A model generated the notes under the pieces. The model saw only the letters and a program-made list of their open reading frames with translations, made no database searches and was not told where the DNA came from. From IMG/VR virus record IMGVR_UViG_3300044730_001491, positions 1 to 24,160 of that record: a stretch of DNA of 24,160 nt, one strand, 5' to 3'. The position numbers and the translations under genes were made by a program. Source of the stretch: a virus. Positions 3,686 through 20,840 of this stretch are shown piece after piece; the stretch's first letter is position 1; every line of letters begins with the position of its first letter.

Positions 3686-5041
3686 ATGTTTTTTACAAGA
3701 AAAAAAAAAGAGGAAAAAAATTTTATAGAAAAGTTTTTTTTACTCGATATACTTACAGGTGATTATAAAACTAAAAACGATGTAAACCAGTTTATAAATT
3801 CATATATAGATGCTTGCCCTGTTTTTATTGCAACTAAAATGATTGCTGATGCAATTTCTGGTATTAATATTGTTTTGCGAGACAAAAAAACTGGTGATTT
3901 TATATATAATCATAAAGCGTTAAATTTACTTAACAATCCTAATCCGTTCACAGATGGACAATTATTTTTAAATGAGATTGCTTCTTATTATATATTAACT
4001 GGCAACTCTTATATTAATATTATCGGCGATAAAGAGCCGATTGAAATTAATAGTATAAAACCGCAAGATATTACAGTAACTGCTTTTAATGATGGTTATG
4101 CTGGGGAATATTCTTATAATTCTTCTTACTCAAGTGCAAATTATCAAAGAAAAGCCGATAAAAGATTTTTTGATGCAAGAAATAATGAAATTATTCATTT
4201 AAGAAATTTTAATCCAAAGTTTTCATCTACAAATTTAATAGGTGTATCATCATTTGCTGGTTGTGGACTAGAAATTGATCAATATGTTCTAGCTTCAATA
4301 CATAATATCTCACTACTTAAAAATGGTGGACGACCAAGTGGACTACTAACTTATAAAGGATCAAATACATTAAGCAAAGAGCAAGCTGACACAATCAAAG
4401 AAACAATTAAATCAAAATTATCTGGTGCAAAAAATGCTGGTGAAATACCTTTTTTGGGTGGAGATTTTGCTTGGCAATCATTATCTGAATCAACAAAAGA
4501 TATGGATTTTGGAAATTTAAAAAACATTGTTGAACAATCAATTTATAAAGCGGTTAAGATACCATTGCCATTGGTTAATTCTGACAATATGACATTTTCT
4601 AATTTAAACGCTTCAACTTATATTTTCTATGATAATGCTGTATTGCCTATTTTTAAAAGAATTTTAAAATTTCTCTCAGTAAAATTACTTTCACGCTATA
4701 AAGATGCTGATAATTTAGAATTATATTTTGATGAATCAAATATTGAGGCACTACAAGCAAGGAAATTTGAAAATAGTAGAATGGCTTCACAACTTGGAGT
4801 ATTAACAGATAATGAAGTAAGAGCCTTACTAGGATATGAAGCAATTACTAATGGCGATACTATTTATAAACCAAGCAATCAAATAGCAGTAGGTCAAGAT
4901 GCTTATATAGAAGATAATAGAAATGAACCCGCTAAAAAAGAGTTTATAAGAATTATGCAAAAACAATTAAAGCACGATGGATCAAAATTTTATACAGATG
5001 AATATATCCAACTAAAAGCAAAAGAATTTTATGGAAATTGA
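3686..5041 (+). CDS. Portal protein (HK97 family)
   Basis: A 451-residue portal, forming the 12-fold ring at one capsid vertex through which DNA enters and to which the tail attaches. Family hallmarks seen: the N-terminal segment with VFIATKMIADAISGINIVLR, the LLNNPNP motif (about 85-91), the LTGNSYI segment, the EIIHLR strand (about 169-174) and the SLLKNGGRPSGLL helix-turn. The C-terminal 50 residues are charged and tail off, as usual. It lies between the terminase and the Mu F-like head protein and overlaps the latter by 11 bases. It is the first gene after motif copy 1. The start has no Shine-Dalgarno; the lysine-rich beginning MFFTRKKKEEKN is typical of portals. Confidence 0.93.
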   Translation: MFFTRKKKEEKNFIEKFFLLDILTGDYKTKNDVNQFINSYIDACPVFIATKMIADAISGINIVLRDKKTGDFIYNHKALNLLNNPNPFTDGQLFLNEIASYYILTGNSYINIIGDKEPIEINSIKPQDITVTAFNDGYAGEYSYNSSYSSANYQRKADKRFFDARNNEIIHLRNFNPKFSSTNLIGVSSFAGCGLEIDQYVLASIHNISLLKNGGRPSGLLTYKGSNTLSKEQADTIKETIKSKLSGAKNAGEIPFLGGDFAWQSLSESTKDMDFGNLKNIVEQSIYKAVKIPLPLVNSDNMTFSNLNASTYIFYDNAVLPIFKRILKFLSVKLLSRYKDADNLELYFDESNIEALQARKFENSRMASQLGVLTDNEVRALLGYEAITNGDTIYKPSNQIAVGQDAYIEDNRNEPAKKEFIRIMQKQLKHDGSKFYTDEYIQLKAKEFYGN

Positions 5042-5846
5042 TGTTCGTAAAAGAAAGCTAGAAGCAAACGCTTTACCTAATGTTAAGCGTATATTTAGAA
5101 ACATGGCAAAAGATGCAGAGAATATTTATCGTAAAAACGGTAATATAAATACCCAAGAATTAGCAAATAATTATTATCCTGAGTTTCTAAAAGAAATTAG
5201 GGATATGATGCGAAAAACTACAAAAGAATTTGGATTTAGTTTAAGAGAAGATTTACAAAGTAAAGGCTTAAATTTTGGAATAGATTTAGAAATAAAAGAA
5301 ATCACTGATCCATTTGTTAAAGATAAACTAAAAAATATCAATGATCAATTAAGAGAATCAACCACTTTTTTTATTGCTAATGAAAGCGAAACACAGGCAA
5401 AATATATCACAGAAACAAACACAAAAGAAATATTTTTAGCAATATCACAAGAAGAGCAAAAATTTAATTATCAGAAAGCAATGTTTGAGTGGGCAATTAT
5501 TGCTAAAAATATTAAAGTAAACTTACTTGATAAAAGCGAAGCAAGAAGTGAATTAATAGTTTCTCAGGTAATAGGCTTAACAGAAAGTTGGACAAGACAA
5601 GAAGAGGCAGAATTAATTGATGATTCTGAATTAGAGGTTGAAGGCAGAAAAATTAATGTTAGAAAAACATTATTTGCAATTTTGGATCAAAAAACTCGCC
5701 CTACTCATGTCGCCGCAGATGGGCAGCAAGTTGATATTAAAGATGATTTTATTATTGGCGATTATCGAGCTCAATATCCAAGAGCAGAAAATTTACCTCC
5801 AGAAGAATCTTGTAATTGCAGATGCATCGCTGATTATACATATTAA
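5031..5846 (+). CDS. Mu F / SPP1 gp7-like head morphogenesis protein
   Basis: A 271-residue minor head protein. The diagnostic C-terminal block is present: [10 protein letters not shown] (about 225-234), then [21 protein letters not shown] near the end, matching the Phage_Mu_F (PF04233) signature with its closing CxC. The N-terminal two thirds are helical and charged. Members bind the portal and are present in a few copies in the head; some carry toxin or enzyme domains behind the F domain, but this one ends directly after it. It overlaps the portal gene by 11 bases. Its TAA stop shares a TTAA tetranucleotide with the stop of the minus-strand HNH gene that faces it. Confidence 0.88.
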
Positions 5847-6532
5847 CGCTTATTAGAAGCCTGTTGTTCTAATGTAGCCCAGCGACAATTGGAAGGTTCG
5901 TAATTTCCGTTGTTATCAATTCTATCTAAAGTCATTCCTTTTGGTCTTTCTCCCATATCTTCCAAAAAATTTTCAAAAGAATTTATCCACCTATCACAAA
6001 TTTTAATTCCTCTGCCTCCCCAATCATAATATCTTTTGTGCTTTTTGTTTAAACATCTTTGCTTCATAGCTCCCCAAGATAAATAAGCATTGCTTTTCTT
6101 TGTATGCTTGATATTGCCATGTTTAGTTATTGATTTAATCATAACTGGAACTCTATCTTTTAAACATAATTCGACATTATAGCAACCGCATGATTTTATT
6201 TTACTTTGTCTGACAGCATTGCTATTTATTGGCTTTTTTACTCCACAAATGCATTGAAAAAGCCATTTAGACTTGTCAATATACTCAATTGCAGTTAGTC
6301 TATTAAAGGTTTGCCCAGTTATATCAATAAAGTTTATTAATTTTGCTCTTTTTGTTACTTGCTCTAAATTATAACAACCACAGGATTTTGTTTTTTCTCT
6401 GACTACTACAGATGAATTTTGAATTACATTATTTCCACAATCACATTTTAAAAGCCACTTTCTGTTTCCTAAGTATTTTATAAAGGTAAGCCTATTGTAT
6501 TTCTGGCCAGTTTTATCTATTAGCGAAGGCAT
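5843..6532 (-). CDS. HNH endonuclease with two tandem zinc-ribbon-like modules (probable free-standing homing endonuclease)
   Basis: A 229-residue protein on the opposite strand to the virion genes. Residues 1-55 and 70-119 are two copies of one module: a GQxxNRLT start, a W(L)xxCxCG pair (C30/C32 and C94/C96) and a KSCGCYN end (C51/C53 and C115/C117), probably binding zinc. The C-terminal half has [11 protein letters not shown], then [12 protein letters not shown] and the HNH core [19 protein letters not shown] (202-220), a pattern familiar from phage and intron homing endonucleases. Such genes spread by cutting phage genomes that lack them, and its position between two head genes fits that. 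It may have carried or followed the neighbouring minus-strand genes in. Whether it is active is unknown; all visible key residues look intact. Confidence 0.83.
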
Positions 6533-6550
6533 AAAAATTAAAATTAGTTG

Positions 6551-6595
6551 TTAATAACTTGTTATTAATTCTAATAAGTAATTTAATTATTTCAA
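6551..6595 (-). promoter_or_regulatory. Possible promoter and operator of the HNH gene
   Basis: Read on the minus strand: TTGAAA (6590-6595), a 16-base spacer, then TAGAAT (6568-6573), a reasonable sigma70-like pair. Next to the -10, where transcription would start, lies an 18-base near-perfect palindrome with 8-base arms TTAATAAC (6551-6558) and GTTATTAA (6561-6568) around a TT centre. It ends 18 bases before the gene's ATG. This would let a repressor keep the endonuclease silent. AT-richness makes chance matches easy, so this is tentative. Confidence 0.4.
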
Positions 6596-6599
6596 GCTT

Positions 6600-6709
6600 T
6601 AATTTGAAGTGTATGCTGGCAGAACTTGGGCAACAAATATCTGGGAAAAATACAGAGATTAATAAGTTGGCTATGAATCAATAAGTGGTGGCAACACTCC
6701 ATTAAAACC
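6600..6709. other. Compositionally odd noncoding stretch, possible gene remnant
   Basis: Between the HNH and Ntn-hydrolase genes lie about 100 bases that are visibly richer in G and C than their surroundings. No intact gene is present. One plus-strand frame reads VYAGRTWATNIWEKYRD, two stops, then VGYESISGGNTPLKP and a stop. Another frame gives a 20-codon peptide from an ATG ending in NKLAMNQ. These fragments look more like protein than random AT-rich DNA, so I suspect the decayed remains of a plus-strand gene displaced by the minus-strand insertions. I cannot name it. Confidence 0.3.
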
Positions 6710-7234
6710 TTAATTCTTTTCAATCTCAACAATCTGAGCTTTACCACTTGCCCATACATTCATTTCAATTGTAAGATTTATTGACTCTTCAACTGACTTA
6801 CCTAAATACATTGCCATATAAGCCTCTCTATGCCCAGCCCCATCAGTTGCAAAATCATCTTCCAAAATTTCATTAACTGCACCGTCTTCAAAGTGAAATA
6901 ATTTTTTCTCAAAAACAAGAAAATAATGATTATTAACTTTACCATTAGGCTCAATATTCTGATCTTTTAGCCATTTGCCAAAATCAATAAAAAATCTTTG
7001 TATTCCTAATTGGTCATTTCTTTCAGGTTTTCTAGTCTGGCAAAATAAACCAAAATTAATAATCTCACTAACTAAGCCAGTTCCTGCATATACAATATCA
7101 TTAACTTGCATAATTTTTAAGCGATTTTTGTGATTATCTAAGTGAATTTTAGAACCACTATTGACATAAAAACAACCTGTGTCTGCTCCTAGAATAATTT
7201 TATCTTTGGTGTTTTGTGCTATTAATACTGTCAT
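6710..7234 (-). CDS. Proteasome/HslV-like N-terminal-nucleophile hydrolase
   Basis: A 174-residue protein, the size of a bacterial HslV subunit. It begins MTVLIA, so removal of Met1 would expose Thr2 as the N-terminal nucleophile. IILGADTG (13-20) matches the early strand-turn with an aspartate at D18. RLKIMQVNDIVYAGTG (38-53) corresponds to the segment holding the catalytic lysine (probably K40) before the AG turn. ATDGAGHREAYMAM (129-142) and the helix after it match the GSGxxYAxAA region. HslV works as a double ring with the HslU unfoldase; no ATPase partner is in this window. Possible roles are host or phage protein turnover, or a capsid-maturation helper, but these are guesses. It overlaps the upstream minus-strand gene by 35 bases and sits in opposite-strand cargo between head genes. 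Confidence 0.75.
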   Translation of the reverse strand: MTVLIAQNTKDKIILGADTGCFYVNSGSKIHLDNHKNRLKIMQVNDIVYAGTGLVSEIINFGLFCQTRKPERNDQLGIQRFFIDFGKWLKDQNIEPNGKVNNHYFLVFEKKLFHFEDGAVNEILEDDFATDGAGHREAYMAMYLGKSVEESINLTIEMNVWASGKAQIVEIEKN

Positions 7235-7544
7235 GTAATTTTATATTATTAATGTTGTTATTATAAATTTTTTGAAGCTCGTTTAAATTTGCAATTTCAA
7301 TTTTATTCATTAAGTAGGCAATTGTTAAATCTTTATGTAAAAGATTCCAAACTTTGTAATTTACTCCATATCTTTTCCACTCTTTAGAGCAAGTAAAATA
7401 ATAATTATTAGCAGTCGCAAAATGTCCTATATATCCATTATAAGGTAATTCGTTTTTATATTTCTTTAAAATCCAGCACAGTAATTCATAAGAACCTTTA
7501 AATTTAATATTAAGGTCAATTGGTTGTTGATCTGACAGAAGCAT
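7200..7544 (-). CDS. Unrecognised 114-residue protein in the minus-strand cargo
   Basis: I do not recognise this protein. It is rich in Asn, Lys and Tyr, has no signal peptide or membrane segment and contains few obvious motifs: CWILKKYKNELPYNGYIGHF near the middle of the N-terminal half, YYFTCSKEWKRYGV at about 48-61, and an Asn-rich tail. Its last 35 bases overlap the start of the HslV-like gene in another frame, so the two are probably co-transcribed and perhaps translationally coupled. That makes it a candidate partner, substrate or regulator of the hydrolase. The ATG at 7544 is 31 bases from motif copy 2, which points the other way. It could also be a poorly conserved cargo protein with no link to its neighbour. 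Confidence 0.6.
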   Translation of the reverse strand: MLLSDQQPIDLNIKFKGSYELLCWILKKYKNELPYNGYIGHFATANNYYFTCSKEWKRYGVNYKVWNLLHKDLTIAYLMNKIEIANLNELQKIYNNNINNIKLHDSINSTKHQR

Positions 7545-7659: not shown

Positions 7660-8703
7660 ATGAAAAAAGAAATAAAAACATTTCCATTTGAAGTTAAAGC
7701 AACTGACGAAGAAAATAATTTTTTTACATTTGAAGGCTACGCATCAACCTTCAATAATATTGATTATGGTGACGATGTTGTTGTTAAAGGTGCTTTTGCT
7801 GATTCATTAGCAAAAAATTCACAAGTGCCTATTTTATGGCAACATCAGATGAGTGAGCCCATTGGAGTTTCTTATGAATTATATGAAAATGATAAAGGTT
7901 TAGTTATTAAAGGCAAATTACCAAAAGATGATACTTTAGTTTCTGGTCGTATTATTCCGCAGATGAAAGTTGGATCAATTAAAGAAATGTCAATTGGCTT
8001 TAGAACTAAAAATTTTGATATGTCAAAAGATGGGGTTAGGATTTTAAAAGAAATTGATTTAATTGAAGTTTCACTGGTTACAAAAGCAATGAATTCACGA
8101 GCTTTAGTAGATAGTTTTAAATCATTTGCTGGCACGACAAAACTTTCATTAGCTCCAAGAGATAGAAACTGGGACGGAACACAAGCAGAACAAAGAATAA
8201 GACAGTATACAAATTCAATTGAAGCACCGAGTGAAGATTATCGCAAATACTTTATGTATTTTGATGGACAAAATCCAGATTTATTTGGTTCTTATAAGTT
8301 ACTTTATGCTGATATTATTAATGGAGAGCCTTATATCATACCAAGAGCAGTATTTGCAATTGCTGGTATATTAAATGGTGCAAGAGGTGGTGTTGATATT
8401 TCAGATAATGATAAAAACCGCATTAAACCAGTTATTAATCAGCTTTATAAAAGAATGTCAGAAGAATTTGAAGATGATTCAATTATTAGTCCATTAACAA
8501 AATCTTTTGAGAGTTTAAAAGATATAGAACAAACATTAAAAGCTTATGGTTTCTCAAATAACGAAGCTAAAACATTAATAAGCAAAGTAAAAGAATTTTC
8601 AAGCAAGCGAGACGCTGGCGAAGATAGTCAACGAGATGTTGACACAAAACAAAAAATCATCACAGATCTTAATAATTTCATTAATAATTTAAAAATAAAA
8701 TAA
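7660..8703 (+). CDS. HK97-type prohead protease (U35) with an extra C-terminal domain
   Basis: A 347-residue protein. Residues 1-150 are the U35/S78 maturation protease: FEGYASTFNNIDYGDDVVVKG (25-44 region), catalytic His62 in LWQHQ, Ser111 in EMSIGF and the LIEVSLVT strand with E136. It degrades the scaffold or delta domain of the capsid protein during assembly. Residues about 165-270 form a second domain beginning DRNWDGTQAEQRIRQY, with YKLLYADIINGEPYIIPR and FAIAGILNGARGGVDI. I know this block from other phage proteases and related head proteins, but its function is not established as far as I know. The last 70 residues are charged and helical. The gene ends one base before the capsid gene, and it is the first gene after motif copy 2. 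Confidence 0.9.
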   Translation: MKKEIKTFPFEVKATDEENNFFTFEGYASTFNNIDYGDDVVVKGAFADSLAKNSQVPILWQHQMSEPIGVSYELYENDKGLVIKGKLPKDDTLVSGRIIPQMKVGSIKEMSIGFRTKNFDMSKDGVRILKEIDLIEVSLVTKAMNSRALVDSFKSFAGTTKLSLAPRDRNWDGTQAEQRIRQYTNSIEAPSEDYRKYFMYFDGQNPDLFGSYKLLYADIINGEPYIIPRAVFAIAGILNGARGGVDISDNDKNRIKPVINQLYKRMSEEFEDDSIISPLTKSFESLKDIEQTLKAYGFSNNEAKTLISKVKEFSSKRDAGEDSQRDVDTKQKIITDLNNFINNLKIK

Positions 8704-15770: not shown

Positions 15771-16115
15771 ATGGCTATTTTAGATTATGGCGTTTTGTCA
15801 ATAAATGGAACAATTATCGCTTATGAAGGAGCGGTAAAAATTCAAGCAGGTTCAAAAAAAAGAATCGTTAATCCGCAAGTTAACGGTGCCAAAATTGTTA
15901 CTACTGATATTTCAACAAATATGAGTAAGATTACTATTACAGTGAGAAATACGCCAGCAAGCATTGCACAGTTTGACGCTTTTTATAATAATGGAGATAA
16001 TAATACAATTTCTTTTAGAGATCAAAATTTCACTGGTTGTTTAATTGAAGAATTGCCAGAAAGAGAAGATTTAGGAACTGTTGACTATGTATTCTACGGC
16101 GATCCTGCATTATAG
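15771..16115 (+). CDS. Tail tube protein (Mu gpM-like)
   Basis: A 114-residue beta-barrel protein forming hexameric rings of the inner tail tube. It begins ILDYGVLSINGTIIAYEGAV and contains VNGAKIVTTDISTNMSKITI, ARNTP-like VRNTPAS, then a FRDQNFTGCLIEELPEREDL loop, ending VDYVFYGDP. This is the layout of Mu-type tube proteins (PF10618), and the length is normal. It lies seven bases downstream of the sheath stop. The abundance expected for a tube protein contrasts with the absence of a Shine-Dalgarno; an A/T-rich leader precedes the ATG. Confidence 0.87.
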   Translation: MAILDYGVLSINGTIIAYEGAVKIQAGSKKRIVNPQVNGAKIVTTDISTNMSKITITVRNTPASIAQFDAFYNNGDNNTISFRDQNFTGCLIEELPEREDLGTVDYVFYGDPAL

Positions 16116-16128
16116 TTAAAAGTTAAAT

Positions 16129-16593
16129 ATGACAGATAAAATAATTTTTGAATTAAAACAATCAATAAAAGTACAAGCTAACATAGATGGCAAGAATGAT
16201 TTTATTGATTTAGATAAAATTTATTTATTAGCTCCAAGTTATAAAGAAAAAGACAAAACTTTAATTCTTAAAAAGAAATTTCTTGAAGCAATGCTTCTTT
16301 TGCCTTCTTACATGTCAAGACAAGAAGCACAAGAGCAAGTAAATAGTGATAATGTTAAGTTTGATGCTAAAACAATTCATGCTTTATTATTTTTATTTAA
16401 AGATTTTGACATTGTTTCTTATCACAAATACTTTGCAAATCTTTTATTAAATGTCGCTTTTAAAGATGAAGAATCAAAGCAACCACTTACAACTTTAGAT
16501 ATAAATAAAATAAGTGAAGATGATTTTGAGGGGCTACTTGCTAAATATTTAGAGGTTTTTTTTATTGTTTCGTGGACGAAGACTCTCAACTAG
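16129..16593 (+). CDS. Tail assembly chaperone, zero-frame product
   Basis: A 154-residue protein in the position of Mu gp41. It is largely helical with conserved-looking segments DKTLILKKKFLEAMLLLPSY, FLFKDFDIVSYHKYF and a C-terminus LAKYLEVFFIVSW. It is expected to coat the tape measure protein while the tube polymerises and not to enter the virion. The ribosome reads through a slippery T-run at codons 144-145, stopping at TAG 16591-16593, or shifts by -1 to make the longer form listed next. The two forms normally occur in a fixed ratio. Confidence 0.82.
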   Translation: MTDKIIFELKQSIKVQANIDGKNDFIDLDKIYLLAPSYKEKDKTLILKKKFLEAMLLLPSYMSRQEAQEQVNSDNVKFDAKTIHALLFLFKDFDIVSYHKYFANLLLNVAFKDEESKQPLTTLDINKISEDDFEGLLAKYLEVFFIVSWTKTLN

Positions 16594-16733
16594 AGTCTTT
16601 AATATGCAACCTTGCCTATTTCTATAAAGGATCGGCGAGTTTTGATTGGTTAGAATCACAACCAATACCTAAATTATTAAGACTTCAAAAAGAAGCTCAA
16701 AAAATTAACAAACAACTAGAAAAAAATGTTTAA
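16129..16733 (+). CDS. Tail assembly chaperone, -1 frameshift fusion product
   Basis: After 145 zero-frame codons (to base 16563), a -1 slip continues for 56 codons (16563-16730) to TAA 16731-16733, giving about 201 residues. The extension reads YCFVDEDSQLESL, NLAYFYKGSASFDWLESQ and KLLRLQKEAQKINKQLEKN, a helical segment that looks like real protein. It contains no ATG in its frame, so it can hardly be translated alone. It overlaps the tape measure start by 8 bases, as is usual. Frameshifted chaperone pairs here are known in Mu (gp41/42), lambda (G/GT) and P2 (E/E'). Function: the extended form recruits tube subunits to the chaperone-coated tape measure. Confidence 0.82.
16557..16600 (+). promoter_or_regulatory. 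Programmed -1 frameshift signal: slippery T-run and hairpin
   Basis: T TTT TTT at 16557-16563 is in the right register for -1 slippage, and both the P- and A-site tRNAs can re-pair perfectly. Downstream, GAAGACTCT (16578-16586) can pair with AGAGTCTTT (16592-16600) around a 5-base loop, with one terminal G-U pair. The zero-frame TAG overlaps the start of the 3' arm. The 14-base spacer from slip site to stem is longer than usual, so the hairpin may be only a modest stimulator. Confidence 0.78.
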
Positions 16734-18108
16734 AGTATCCTACATATATGATTTAGTTGATAATATAAGCCCTCAGTTAAAAACAATTCAAGCTAATTTA
16801 GAAGCTACAAGAAGCAAGACGCAAAAAATCGCAAATTCAATGTCAACCTCTCTTAATCAAGTTGTAACAAAACTAGATAATTTAGGTACAAAATTTACAA
16901 GATTTGGTAAAGATATGTTTGTTAAAGCAACATTACCAATAGGCCTAGTAGCTGGCTCATTTATAAAAATAGCCTCAGATTATTCAGAGTCAATTAATAA
17001 AGTTGATGTCGCATTTGGAAACGCATCACAAACAGTAAAAGACTTTGCAAATACTGCTGGAAAAAATTTTGGTATTGACCGAGGAACTGCACTCGATATG
17101 GCAGCAATGTTTGGCGATATGTCAACATCAATGGGATTGTCTCAAATAAAGGCCTCAGAATTATCAACTAGTTTAGTGGGTCTAGCAGGAGATTTAGCAT
17201 CATTTAAAAACTTAAATATTAGCGAAGTACAAACAGCACTATCAGGTATATTTACTGGCGAAACTGAGAGCTTAAAAAGACTTGGTGTAGTGATGACAGA
17301 AGAAAATCTAAATCAATTTCTTCTAACACAAGGAATTGCAAAAAAAATGAGTAATTTGACACAAGCTCAAAAGGTTTTGCAAAGATATAATTATGTTTTG
17401 CAAATGACATCAAATTCTCATGGTGATTTTATAAGAACTCAAGCGGGTTTTGCAAATCAAATGAGAATAATGCGTTCTTCATATAATGATCTATCAATTC
17501 AGTTAGGGACGATTTTACTTCCATACGCAATACAATTTATTGGTGTTTTAAATAAGACAACTCAATATTTTCAACAATTGACACCAGAAACCCAAAAAAT
17601 GATTTTAATTATTGGTGGTTTGATTGCAATTTTGCCACCGCTTGTTATAATTTTTGGCTCTATAATTTTGGCAGTTAAAGGATTAATTATTGGTTTATCC
17701 TTTTTAGCATCGCCAATTGGTGCATTAACTACTTTAATTATTGGTCTTATAACATTATTTTTTTTATTTAAAAACGATTTAATAGCAATTAAAGATTTTA
17801 TAGTTAATGAATTTGCACCTGCTTTTGATTATGTTGCTAACAAAATTAAATTTGTAATGGATTTAATAAATAAATTTAGGACTGATACTGCTATTGTTTT
17901 AGATTTTATCGGACTTGAAAAATTATCAAAAATAATTTCACCAGAACTAAATCAACAAACGCAAATAAATAAACCACAGCAACTAACAGCAGGCGGTCAA
18001 TTAGATGTTAATATTAATGGCTTACCCAAAGGCTCTAGTGCTGGATTTACTCCAAGACCTAACAATTTCTTGCCTGTCGGCGTTAACGCAGTATTTGCGG
18101 GGTCGTAA
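16726..18108 (+). CDS. Tail tape measure protein (short)
   Basis: A 460-residue protein. The N-terminal third is helical (NISPQLKTIQANLEATRSK, then SMSTSLNQVVTKLDNLG). SDYSESINKVDVAFGNAS and FGIDRGTALDMAAMFGDM match the PhageMin_Tail domain (PF10145), with the FTGETESLKRLGVVMTEENL landmark. Two hydrophobic segments (about 288-310 IILIIGGLIAILPPLVIIFG-like, and 313-348) are candidate membrane-insertion helices. The C-terminus is Gly/Pro-rich. Tape measures set tail length at roughly 0.15 nm per residue, which would give a tail near 70 nm. Mu's is longer as I recall, so this tail should be short. Follows the frameshifted chaperones as expected. Confidence 0.9.
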   Translation: MFKVSYIYDLVDNISPQLKTIQANLEATRSKTQKIANSMSTSLNQVVTKLDNLGTKFTRFGKDMFVKATLPIGLVAGSFIKIASDYSESINKVDVAFGNASQTVKDFANTAGKNFGIDRGTALDMAAMFGDMSTSMGLSQIKASELSTSLVGLAGDLASFKNLNISEVQTALSGIFTGETESLKRLGVVMTEENLNQFLLTQGIAKKMSNLTQAQKVLQRYNYVLQMTSNSHGDFIRTQAGFANQMRIMRSSYNDLSIQLGTILLPYAIQFIGVLNKTTQYFQQLTPETQKMILIIGGLIAILPPLVIIFGSIILAVKGLIIGLSFLASPIGALTTLIIGLITLFFLFKNDLIAIKDFIVNEFAPAFDYVANKIKFVMDLINKFRTDTAIVLDFIGLEKLSKIISPELNQQTQINKPQQLTAGGQLDVNINGLPKGSSAGFTPRPNNFLPVGVNAVFAGS

Positions 18109-19298: not shown

Positions 19299-20364
19299 TA
19301 ATAAAATTTATTTAGAAATAGATAATATAAAATATGAAGGCTTCACAGAAATTGCTGTTAATAGTTCTTTAGAAAATTTTAGCTCTTCATTCTCATTTAC
19401 AAGTACAGTTAAAGAAACAAAATTAGGAAAAATTGTAAACGATATTAAACTTGGTCAAAGTGCCAAAGTTTATATTGATGATAAACTTTTTATTACTGGC
19501 TTTATTGAAGATATAGAAAAAGAAGTGTCAAGCGATTCTCATTCAAAAACAGCGTCAGGAAGAGATATAGGCGGAGATATTATTGATTCAAATATAATTC
19601 AAAAATCTTATGCTCAAAGAAATTTTGAAAAACTTGTAAATCTTGTTTTAAAAGATAACGGCTTTTCTATAAAAGTTATTAATAAAGTAGGAACATTAAA
19701 TTTAGAAGCAACAGAAAAAATAAAGACAGAGTCTGGACAGTCTATTTTTAATTTTCTAGATCAATACGCTAAAAAATTACAAGTACTATTAAAAATAGAT
19801 AGTGAAGGTAATTTAACAATAATCAGAGAAGATGATGACATTGTAAAAAATATGCTCATTAATGATTATACATCAAGTACAAATATTTTGACATCTAAAC
19901 TAAAATTGTCAACTGTTGATAGATTTAATCTTATTGAAGTTTATTCTCAAAGTAATAATAAAACTCATACAAAAACAGGTATTTCACAAAAAGGTATAGC
20001 AACAGATTCACAGATAAGAAAAACAAGAAGAAAAATTTTAACAATGAGCACAGCAAGCGAAAGCAGATCATTAAAAGCTTTAGCTGAGTGGAATATTAAT
20101 GTTAAAAGGGCAAAAGGTTCAAGATACACTTGCACAACACTTGGTTTTTATTCAAGCAATAATACTTTATGGCAACCCAACAGGCTTGTTGATATTATTG
20201 ACTATAGCATGGAAATTGAAGGGACATTTTTAATTCAAGGGGTTCAATTTTTACAAACATTAAGAGGCTCATTCACAATACTTGACATAGTAGAGCAAGG
20301 AGCATTTACTTTAGATGGTGTTAAGAATTTAGGAAATAACTTTGCTAGCGACTTAATCATTTAA
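19291..20364 (+). CDS. Baseplate hub protein, Mu gpP (gp44)-like
   Basis: A 357-residue protein. YLEIDNIKYEGFTEIAVNSS, VNDIKLGQSAKVYIDDKLFI and GFIEDIEKEVSS form the N-terminal beta domain. SGRDIGGDIIDSN is the typical SGRDxxxDLVDSS motif of gpP/gpD-like hub proteins, and RNFEKLVNLVLKDNGFSIKV, LDQYAKKLQVLLKIDSEGNL and AEWNINVKRAKGSRYTC follow in family order. It forms the trimeric hub that links the tube to the spike. In Mu-like genomes the next gene, gp45, is on the same strand; here it faces this gene. The stop TAA shares TTAA with the minus-strand stop. Confidence 0.88.
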   Translation: MFNNKIYLEIDNIKYEGFTEIAVNSSLENFSSSFSFTSTVKETKLGKIVNDIKLGQSAKVYIDDKLFITGFIEDIEKEVSSDSHSKTASGRDIGGDIIDSNIIQKSYAQRNFEKLVNLVLKDNGFSIKVINKVGTLNLEATEKIKTESGQSIFNFLDQYAKKLQVLLKIDSEGNLTIIREDDDIVKNMLINDYTSSTNILTSKLKLSTVDRFNLIEVYSQSNNKTHTKTGISQKGIATDSQIRKTRRKILTMSTASESRSLKALAEWNINVKRAKGSRYTCTTLGFYSSNNTLWQPNRLVDIIDYSMEIEGTFLIQGVQFLQTLRGSFTILDIVEQGAFTLDGVKNLGNNFASDLII

Positions 20365-20840
20365 GCAATTAGACCATGATTTTTTAGAGCTGTGATTATA
20401 CTTGCAATCGCTACTCTTGCTTCAACATCAATTGTAACTCCTCCTGCTGGATTTGCAATAGTCGGTTGTTGGCTTCCAACAACTTTAATATTATTAACTT
20501 TATAAGATAAAGCATTAAAAGATTTATCGCAATCAGTATCGCCTTTTATAGTATTTTTACTAGCACCCGCTTTAAATCCGTTATTTGAAACCCTATTTTT
20601 AATCTCACTATCTCCTGCCTCTAATGTTGATTGAGTTATTATATCGTAAGGAATACCAAATAAATTAGTATTACTATTTAAACCACCGAATAATAGTACT
20701 AGTGTTGATTCACTTGGTTTAATATTTGATTGAAAACCGTAGGGATAAATCAATAGCACATCATCAAAAACTTGATTTTGAAAAGATACAACTGTTGCGT
20801 AGGTGCCGTCTGTTTCTGTTATATAGCCCTTTATTATCAT
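20361..20840 (-). CDS. Mu gp45-like baseplate spike protein, inverted relative to its neighbours
   Basis: A 159-residue protein in the exact gene-order slot of Mu gp45 (PF06890) but on the minus strand. VLLIYPYGFQS (28-38), SESTLVLLFGG (43-53) and LEAGDSEIKNRVSNNGFKAG (73-92) fit the gp45 beta-domain pattern. The C-terminus (VTIDVEARVAIASIITALKN, 135-154, then HGLIA) is helical, and I do not see the HxH-type metal-binding tip of some spikes. It should form the membrane-piercing trimer under the hub. Being inverted, it cannot share the plus-strand transcript and must have its own promoter, which I cannot locate convincingly; only a weak purine-rich site precedes its ATG. The coding frame looks intact. 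Confidence 0.75.
   Translation of the reverse strand: MIIKGYITETDGTYATVVSFQNQVFDDVLLIYPYGFQSNIKPSESTLVLLFGGLNSNTNLFGIPYDIITQSTLEAGDSEIKNRVSNNGFKAGASKNTIKGDTDCDKSFNALSYKVNNIKVVGSQQPTIANPAGGVTIDVEARVAIASIITALKNHGLIA

Follow-up and report, generated by a model that had tools for sequence, protein, structure and literature searches.

The virus studied here very probably obtains two products from one tail gene, by means of a one-base ribosomal slip on a run of T residues. We regard programmed -1 ribosomal frameshifting in a gene for a tail assembly chaperone as very likely, and the two products would most likely form a chaperone pair comparable to G/GT of lambda (or E/E+E' of P2). An initial annotation, made from the sequence alone, had proposed a tail-chaperone frameshift at this place, and the conserved heptamer, its register, the conserved extension and the gene order lend it strong support.

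Genomic context

The window, i.e. the whole stretch of DNA that was analysed, is a 24,160-base IMG/VR virus record with 30% GC. It encodes a terminase, an HK97-type capsid and a contractile tail module of the SfV/Mu type, the latter in the order sheath, tube, chaperone ORF, tape measure, DNA_circ_N protein (Mu N), gpP hub, gp46, baseplate J/gp47 and gp48. The chaperone ORF lies between the tube and the tape measure genes, as it does in SfV and Mu, and the end of the -1 extension overlaps the tape measure gene, which starts with an ATG, by 8 nt (Table 1). The tail tube gene had no match in profile searches of Pfam and PHROG.

Two further features of the gene order were seen. A Mu Gp45/gpV-like baseplate spike gene (20361-20840, minus strand) is antisense within the otherwise plus-strand tail operon, between the hub and gp46. 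Its match to PF06890 has an E value of 0.018 in the window and 4.4e-05 in a relative (L046). Where related loci carry this gene (30-100% identity), it is almost always antisense to the hub gene; in SfV, Mu, PY223 and others, by contrast, the two are co-directional. One short contig, L013, seems to be rearranged. In addition, the head genes at 5031-5846 and 7660-8703 are separated by three minus-strand ORFs (5843-7544), an arrangement that looks like cargo inserted into the head module.

Table 1. Features in and around the putative chaperone gene of the window.
Feature	Position	Strand	Remarks
Tail tube gene	15771..16115	+	By position and synteny; gene order as in SfV, Mu and PY223
0-frame ORF, 154 aa, putative short tail assembly chaperone (G-like / P2 E-like)	16129..16593	+	Lies 3' of the tail tube gene and 5' of the tape measure gene; the alignment covers 16 lineages
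Slippery heptamer T_TTT_TTT, in register for -1 slippage	16557..16563	+	Within T8 16556-16563; no deviation in base or register among the 36 distinct sequences
-1 frame extension (putative T-like domain), 56 codons and stop	16563..16733	+	Open in the -1 frame in every relative; -1-frame dN/dS at most 0.08 where defined
Local hairpin, not judged part of the signal	16578..16600	+	Shared only with the nearest relative
Tape measure protein gene	16726..18108	+	PHROG 1535, E 1.1e-29

The slip site and its conservation

The 0-frame ORF ends in EGLLAKYLEVFFIVSWTKTLN, followed by the stop codon TAG at 16591-16593. Near its 3' end the codons GAG GTT TTT TTT ATT place the heptamer in the exact X_XXY_YYZ register. 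Slip-like heptamers as such are frequent, since about 100 of them are found in register in the genes of the window. In the others a -1 frame of more than 50 codons, if there is one at all, simply leads into the next annotated gene; T_TTT_TTT is the sole exception.

Relatives were collected by scanning viral contigs with the ORF, with a neighbour and with alignments of both parts as queries, and were reduced to 36 distinct sequences, the window included. The identity of the 0-frame protein in this set is about 27-99%. A run of seven or eight T residues ends on a codon boundary in every one of the 36 sequences, and in 34 of them it is a T8. In the other two (L044 and L045) the codon before the two Phe codons has changed from GTT to TCT, which shortens the run to T7 and leaves T_TTT_TTT intact. 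The 0-frame stop is retained 6-15 codons 3' of the slip site.

The third codon positions, mapped on a tree of these relatives, show a mean of 5.5 changes per column. It is conspicuous that only 3 of the 142 columns are without any third-position change, and that these are exactly the three codons of the heptamer. We note that the invariance of TTT alone would be weak evidence, as 94% of the Phe codons here are TTT; what counts is the whole heptamer, including the third base of the Val/Ser codon. The invariant heptamer and the codon conservation across the relatives are a strong argument against both chance and sequencing error. On this comparative evidence T_TTT_TTT is a functional recoding site. 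The view that a homopolymer sequencing error has split one gene, for which a T8 would be an error-prone kind of site, has next to no probability and is refuted by the comparative data, in that the 36 distinct sequences, to which many metagenomes contributed, all show the same register and frame break, with the 0-frame stop 6-15 codons on.

A further locus (L092, JALREU010000017.1), in a metagenome-assembled Rickettsiales genome, also carries an in-register T_TTT_TTT. It is the only relative that was found in the genome collection and hints at an alphaproteobacterial host; the locus is present in 1 of the 61 genomes of its family.

The -1 frame extension

From the slip site the -1 frame is open for 56 codons, without an ATG, up to the TAA at 16731-16733, and its translation is YCFVDEDSQLESLICNLAYFYKGSASFDWLESQPIPKLLRLQKEAQKINKQLEKNV followed by the stop. 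The predicted fusion has 145+56 = 201 residues. Its junction reads EVFF followed by YCFVDEDSQLESLICNLAYFYK; the junction-spanning peptide is EVFFYCFVDEDSQ, and GSASFDWLESQPIPK is an example of a peptide from the extension. The register, the open frame ending just inside the tape measure gene and the length of the fusion are thus as the initial annotation had stated, and the two conservation checks that it had suggested, of the heptamer and of the extension, turned out in its favour: the former is exact in 36/36 distinct sequences and the -1 frame of the latter is unbroken in every relative.

The extension evolves as a protein-coding sequence would. Among the closest relatives it is 86-98% identical at the amino acid level, as compared with 62-99% for the 0-frame protein. 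Past the 0-frame stop there are 47 variable columns, which split 32:12:3 on the codon positions 3:1:2 of the -1 frame, and for the -1 frame dN/dS is 0-0.08 wherever dS is unsaturated, while the two remaining frames give values of approximately 0.6 and above. The pattern of substitutions suggests that the extension is coding in the -1 frame only. A core, L..AYFYKGSASF.WLE.QPI.KLLRL..EA.KINK, is kept across 15 lineages, and AlphaFold2 predicts the extension to be all-helical, with three helices and a mean pLDDT of 82. The clade L028-L043 has a 10-residue insertion directly after the 0-frame stop, with the frame kept. A product of the +1 frame was also considered and rejected, as this frame closes early in all but a few relatives.

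Sequence similarity to known chaperones was not significant for either domain. Profile searches of the short chaperone and of the extension in Pfam and PHROGs gave no usable match, a tblastn search of the short chaperone against a phage collection and a fold search in the PDB gave no match, and an hhalign comparison of the short chaperones with the SfV-type ones was not significant. Foldseek matched the 0-frame ORF weakly to two proteins annotated as tail chaperones (probabilities 0.89 and 0.82; E values 0.041 and 0.17). At the sensitivity tested, the chaperone family is not represented in Pfam and PHROGs.

Candidate stimulators

The initial annotation had included a downstream hairpin in the signal. 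A stem of 9 pairs does exist in the window (16578-16586 with 16592-16600, one G-U pair, -10.1 kcal/mol), but its role in the signal did not hold up. The stem starts 14 nt after the heptamer and overlaps the 0-frame stop codon, whereas stimulators are usually spaced 5-8 nt after the heptamer (PMC4066793), and it is only modestly better than shuffled sequences (z -1.9; 10 of 200 as good). In 14 distinct aligned rows 73.8% of the cells are paired as against 72.9% after shuffling, 6 of the 9 pairs are broken in some relatives, and convincing covariation is lacking. On covariation and spacing we reject the hairpin as a stimulator of the downstream kind seen in IS3/IS911 elements. In other lineages the downstream folds differ and some hardly fold; neither a conserved stimulatory hairpin nor a well-spaced Shine-Dalgarno-like element was found across the lineages. 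P2-type sites are likewise without a hairpin (PMC3091744). As no conserved stimulator was found, the rate of slippage may be low.

A GAGG (16552-16555) stands directly before the T run, and its GAG codon is kept in 16 of 18 lineages though GAA is the usual Glu codon. It is possibly a translational element of its own. As it abuts the T run it lies at the very edge of stimulatory positions; the published Shine-Dalgarno-like stimulators lie 6-17 nt upstream (PMC4066793).

A probable ribosomal slip and its alternatives

We infer that the slippage is ribosomal, and from the lambda and P2 systems what the two proteins may do. Most ribosomes would read the 0-frame ORF to its stop, with the 154-aa short chaperone as the product. 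On T_TTT_TTT a minority would slip back by one base with tRNA-Phe in the P and A sites, where re-pairing with TTT TTT would be perfect, and would continue through the 56 codons to give the 201-aa fusion. If lambda gpG/gpGT and P2 E/E+E' are a guide, the part shared by both products would coat the tape measure protein, and the tail tube protein would be recruited by the C-terminal part, which is helical and rare. In an earlier comparison, as cited in PMC5009743, U_UUU_UUU was much less shifty than A_AAA_AAG. The G:GT ratio of lambda is 30:1 (PMC5009743), and by this analogy a low slippage rate would suit a chaperone pair.

The fusion might also arise at transcription, if RNA polymerase dropped one U (or added two) on the T8 and the altered mRNA were translated in the ordinary way. 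The run is near the length reported for polymerase slippage, i.e. runs of eight or more (PMC3711429), and its retention as T8 in 34 of the 36 sequences would fit. On the other hand, the run is cut to T7 in L044 and L045 while the ribosomal heptamer stays in register, and the distant SfV-like relatives have T6 followed by C, G or A, which is shorter than the reported polymerase-slippage runs and makes good ribosomal sites. We therefore hold this explanation to be quite improbable. The broader proposal that the uniform T run acts at transcription, or that polymerase and ribosome both slip on it in an AT-rich host, is unlikely as well. If slippage did occur at the level of transcription, the chaperone ratio would be set partly by RNA polymerase and not by the ribosome alone.

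A separate small protein, made without any fusion from an internal start, is very unlikely. All relatives have an NTG at the respective position (ATG, GTG or TTG, with ATG in several; GTG at 16572-16574 in the window) with an AGAGG upstream. However, the NTG is forced by a conserved 0-frame Trp codon, TGG, and hence uninformative, and the AGAGG ends 16 nt upstream of it, a spacing too long for efficient initiation. Moreover, an internal start leaves unexplained why the heptamer codons alone lack third-position changes. Programmed ribosomal frameshifting thus remains the preferred explanation.

Comparison with known systems

The mechanism is already known in many phages, so that we see here a real and strongly conserved further case, useful for annotation rather than surprising. 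With it, uncultivated, AT-rich phages with SfV/Mu-type tails gain a chaperone family that had not been annotated, is deeply conserved and carries a recoding site. In practical terms, annotators who meet a short ORF and then a "gap" ahead of the tape measure gene should enter the two as a joined gene.

The initial annotation had set the slip site apart from the GGGA/AAA-type sites known in other phages. That it would be unusual is not borne out, as T_TTT_TTN is established in the tail chaperones of P2-like and Mu/SfV-like phages, and T as the last base is a minor variant. Slip sites of the T7G/T7C kind are described in Smp131 and in related xanthomonad and Stenotrophomonas prophages (PMC3931495), and PaMx73 has T TTT TTC (PMC4378225). 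In text searches that covered mainly the openly accessible literature, T_TTT_TTT was not named for a tail gene in any paper, which is weak evidence of novelty.

The nearest known arrangement is SfV orf13 (NP_599045) together with a -1 frame, missing from the annotation, that precedes the tape measure gene orf14. Both SfV and the window have a tube, a chaperone, a gap of approximately 140 nt, a tape measure, a circularisation protein and a gpP hub, and in both the -1 extension ends 8 nt inside the tape measure gene. In contrast to the window, the SfV slip site is T_TTT_TTC and the short chaperone has 89 instead of 154 residues. The chaperones show no significant similarity, and the extensions show a weak 30-column match. 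A -1 frame that runs to the tape measure start from the end of the corresponding ORF is also found in EPP-1 and MWH-Nonnen-W8red 2 (T_TTT_TTC), in PY223 and YPCBV-1 (T_TTT_TTG) and in a remote relative (L096) in a contig of the Rickettsiales MAG (T_TTT_TTA). In other words, the T_TTT_TTN class is common to the SfV/Mu tail type, with every base represented at N.

P2 E/E+E' resembles the window in its T-run -1 slip site, in the lack of a downstream hairpin and in the place of the gene before the tape measure (PMC3091744, PMC3931495), but its site is TTTTTTG, its products have 91 (E) and 142 (E+E') residues, and no family match links the sequences. Lambda G/GT shares the -1 frameshift, the short abundant and long rare products and the place before the tape measure (PMC5009743), although such a product ratio is an expectation in the window; the slip sites differ, no sequence similarity was detected, and the function is proven in lambda and putative here. 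Mu gp41 and its extension agree in tail type and gene order, but Mu uses a -2 shift (PMC4378225) instead of the -1 shift of the window; in Mu and in Vibrio phage martha the other frame (-2/+1) is open and there is no T_TTT_TTN heptamer.
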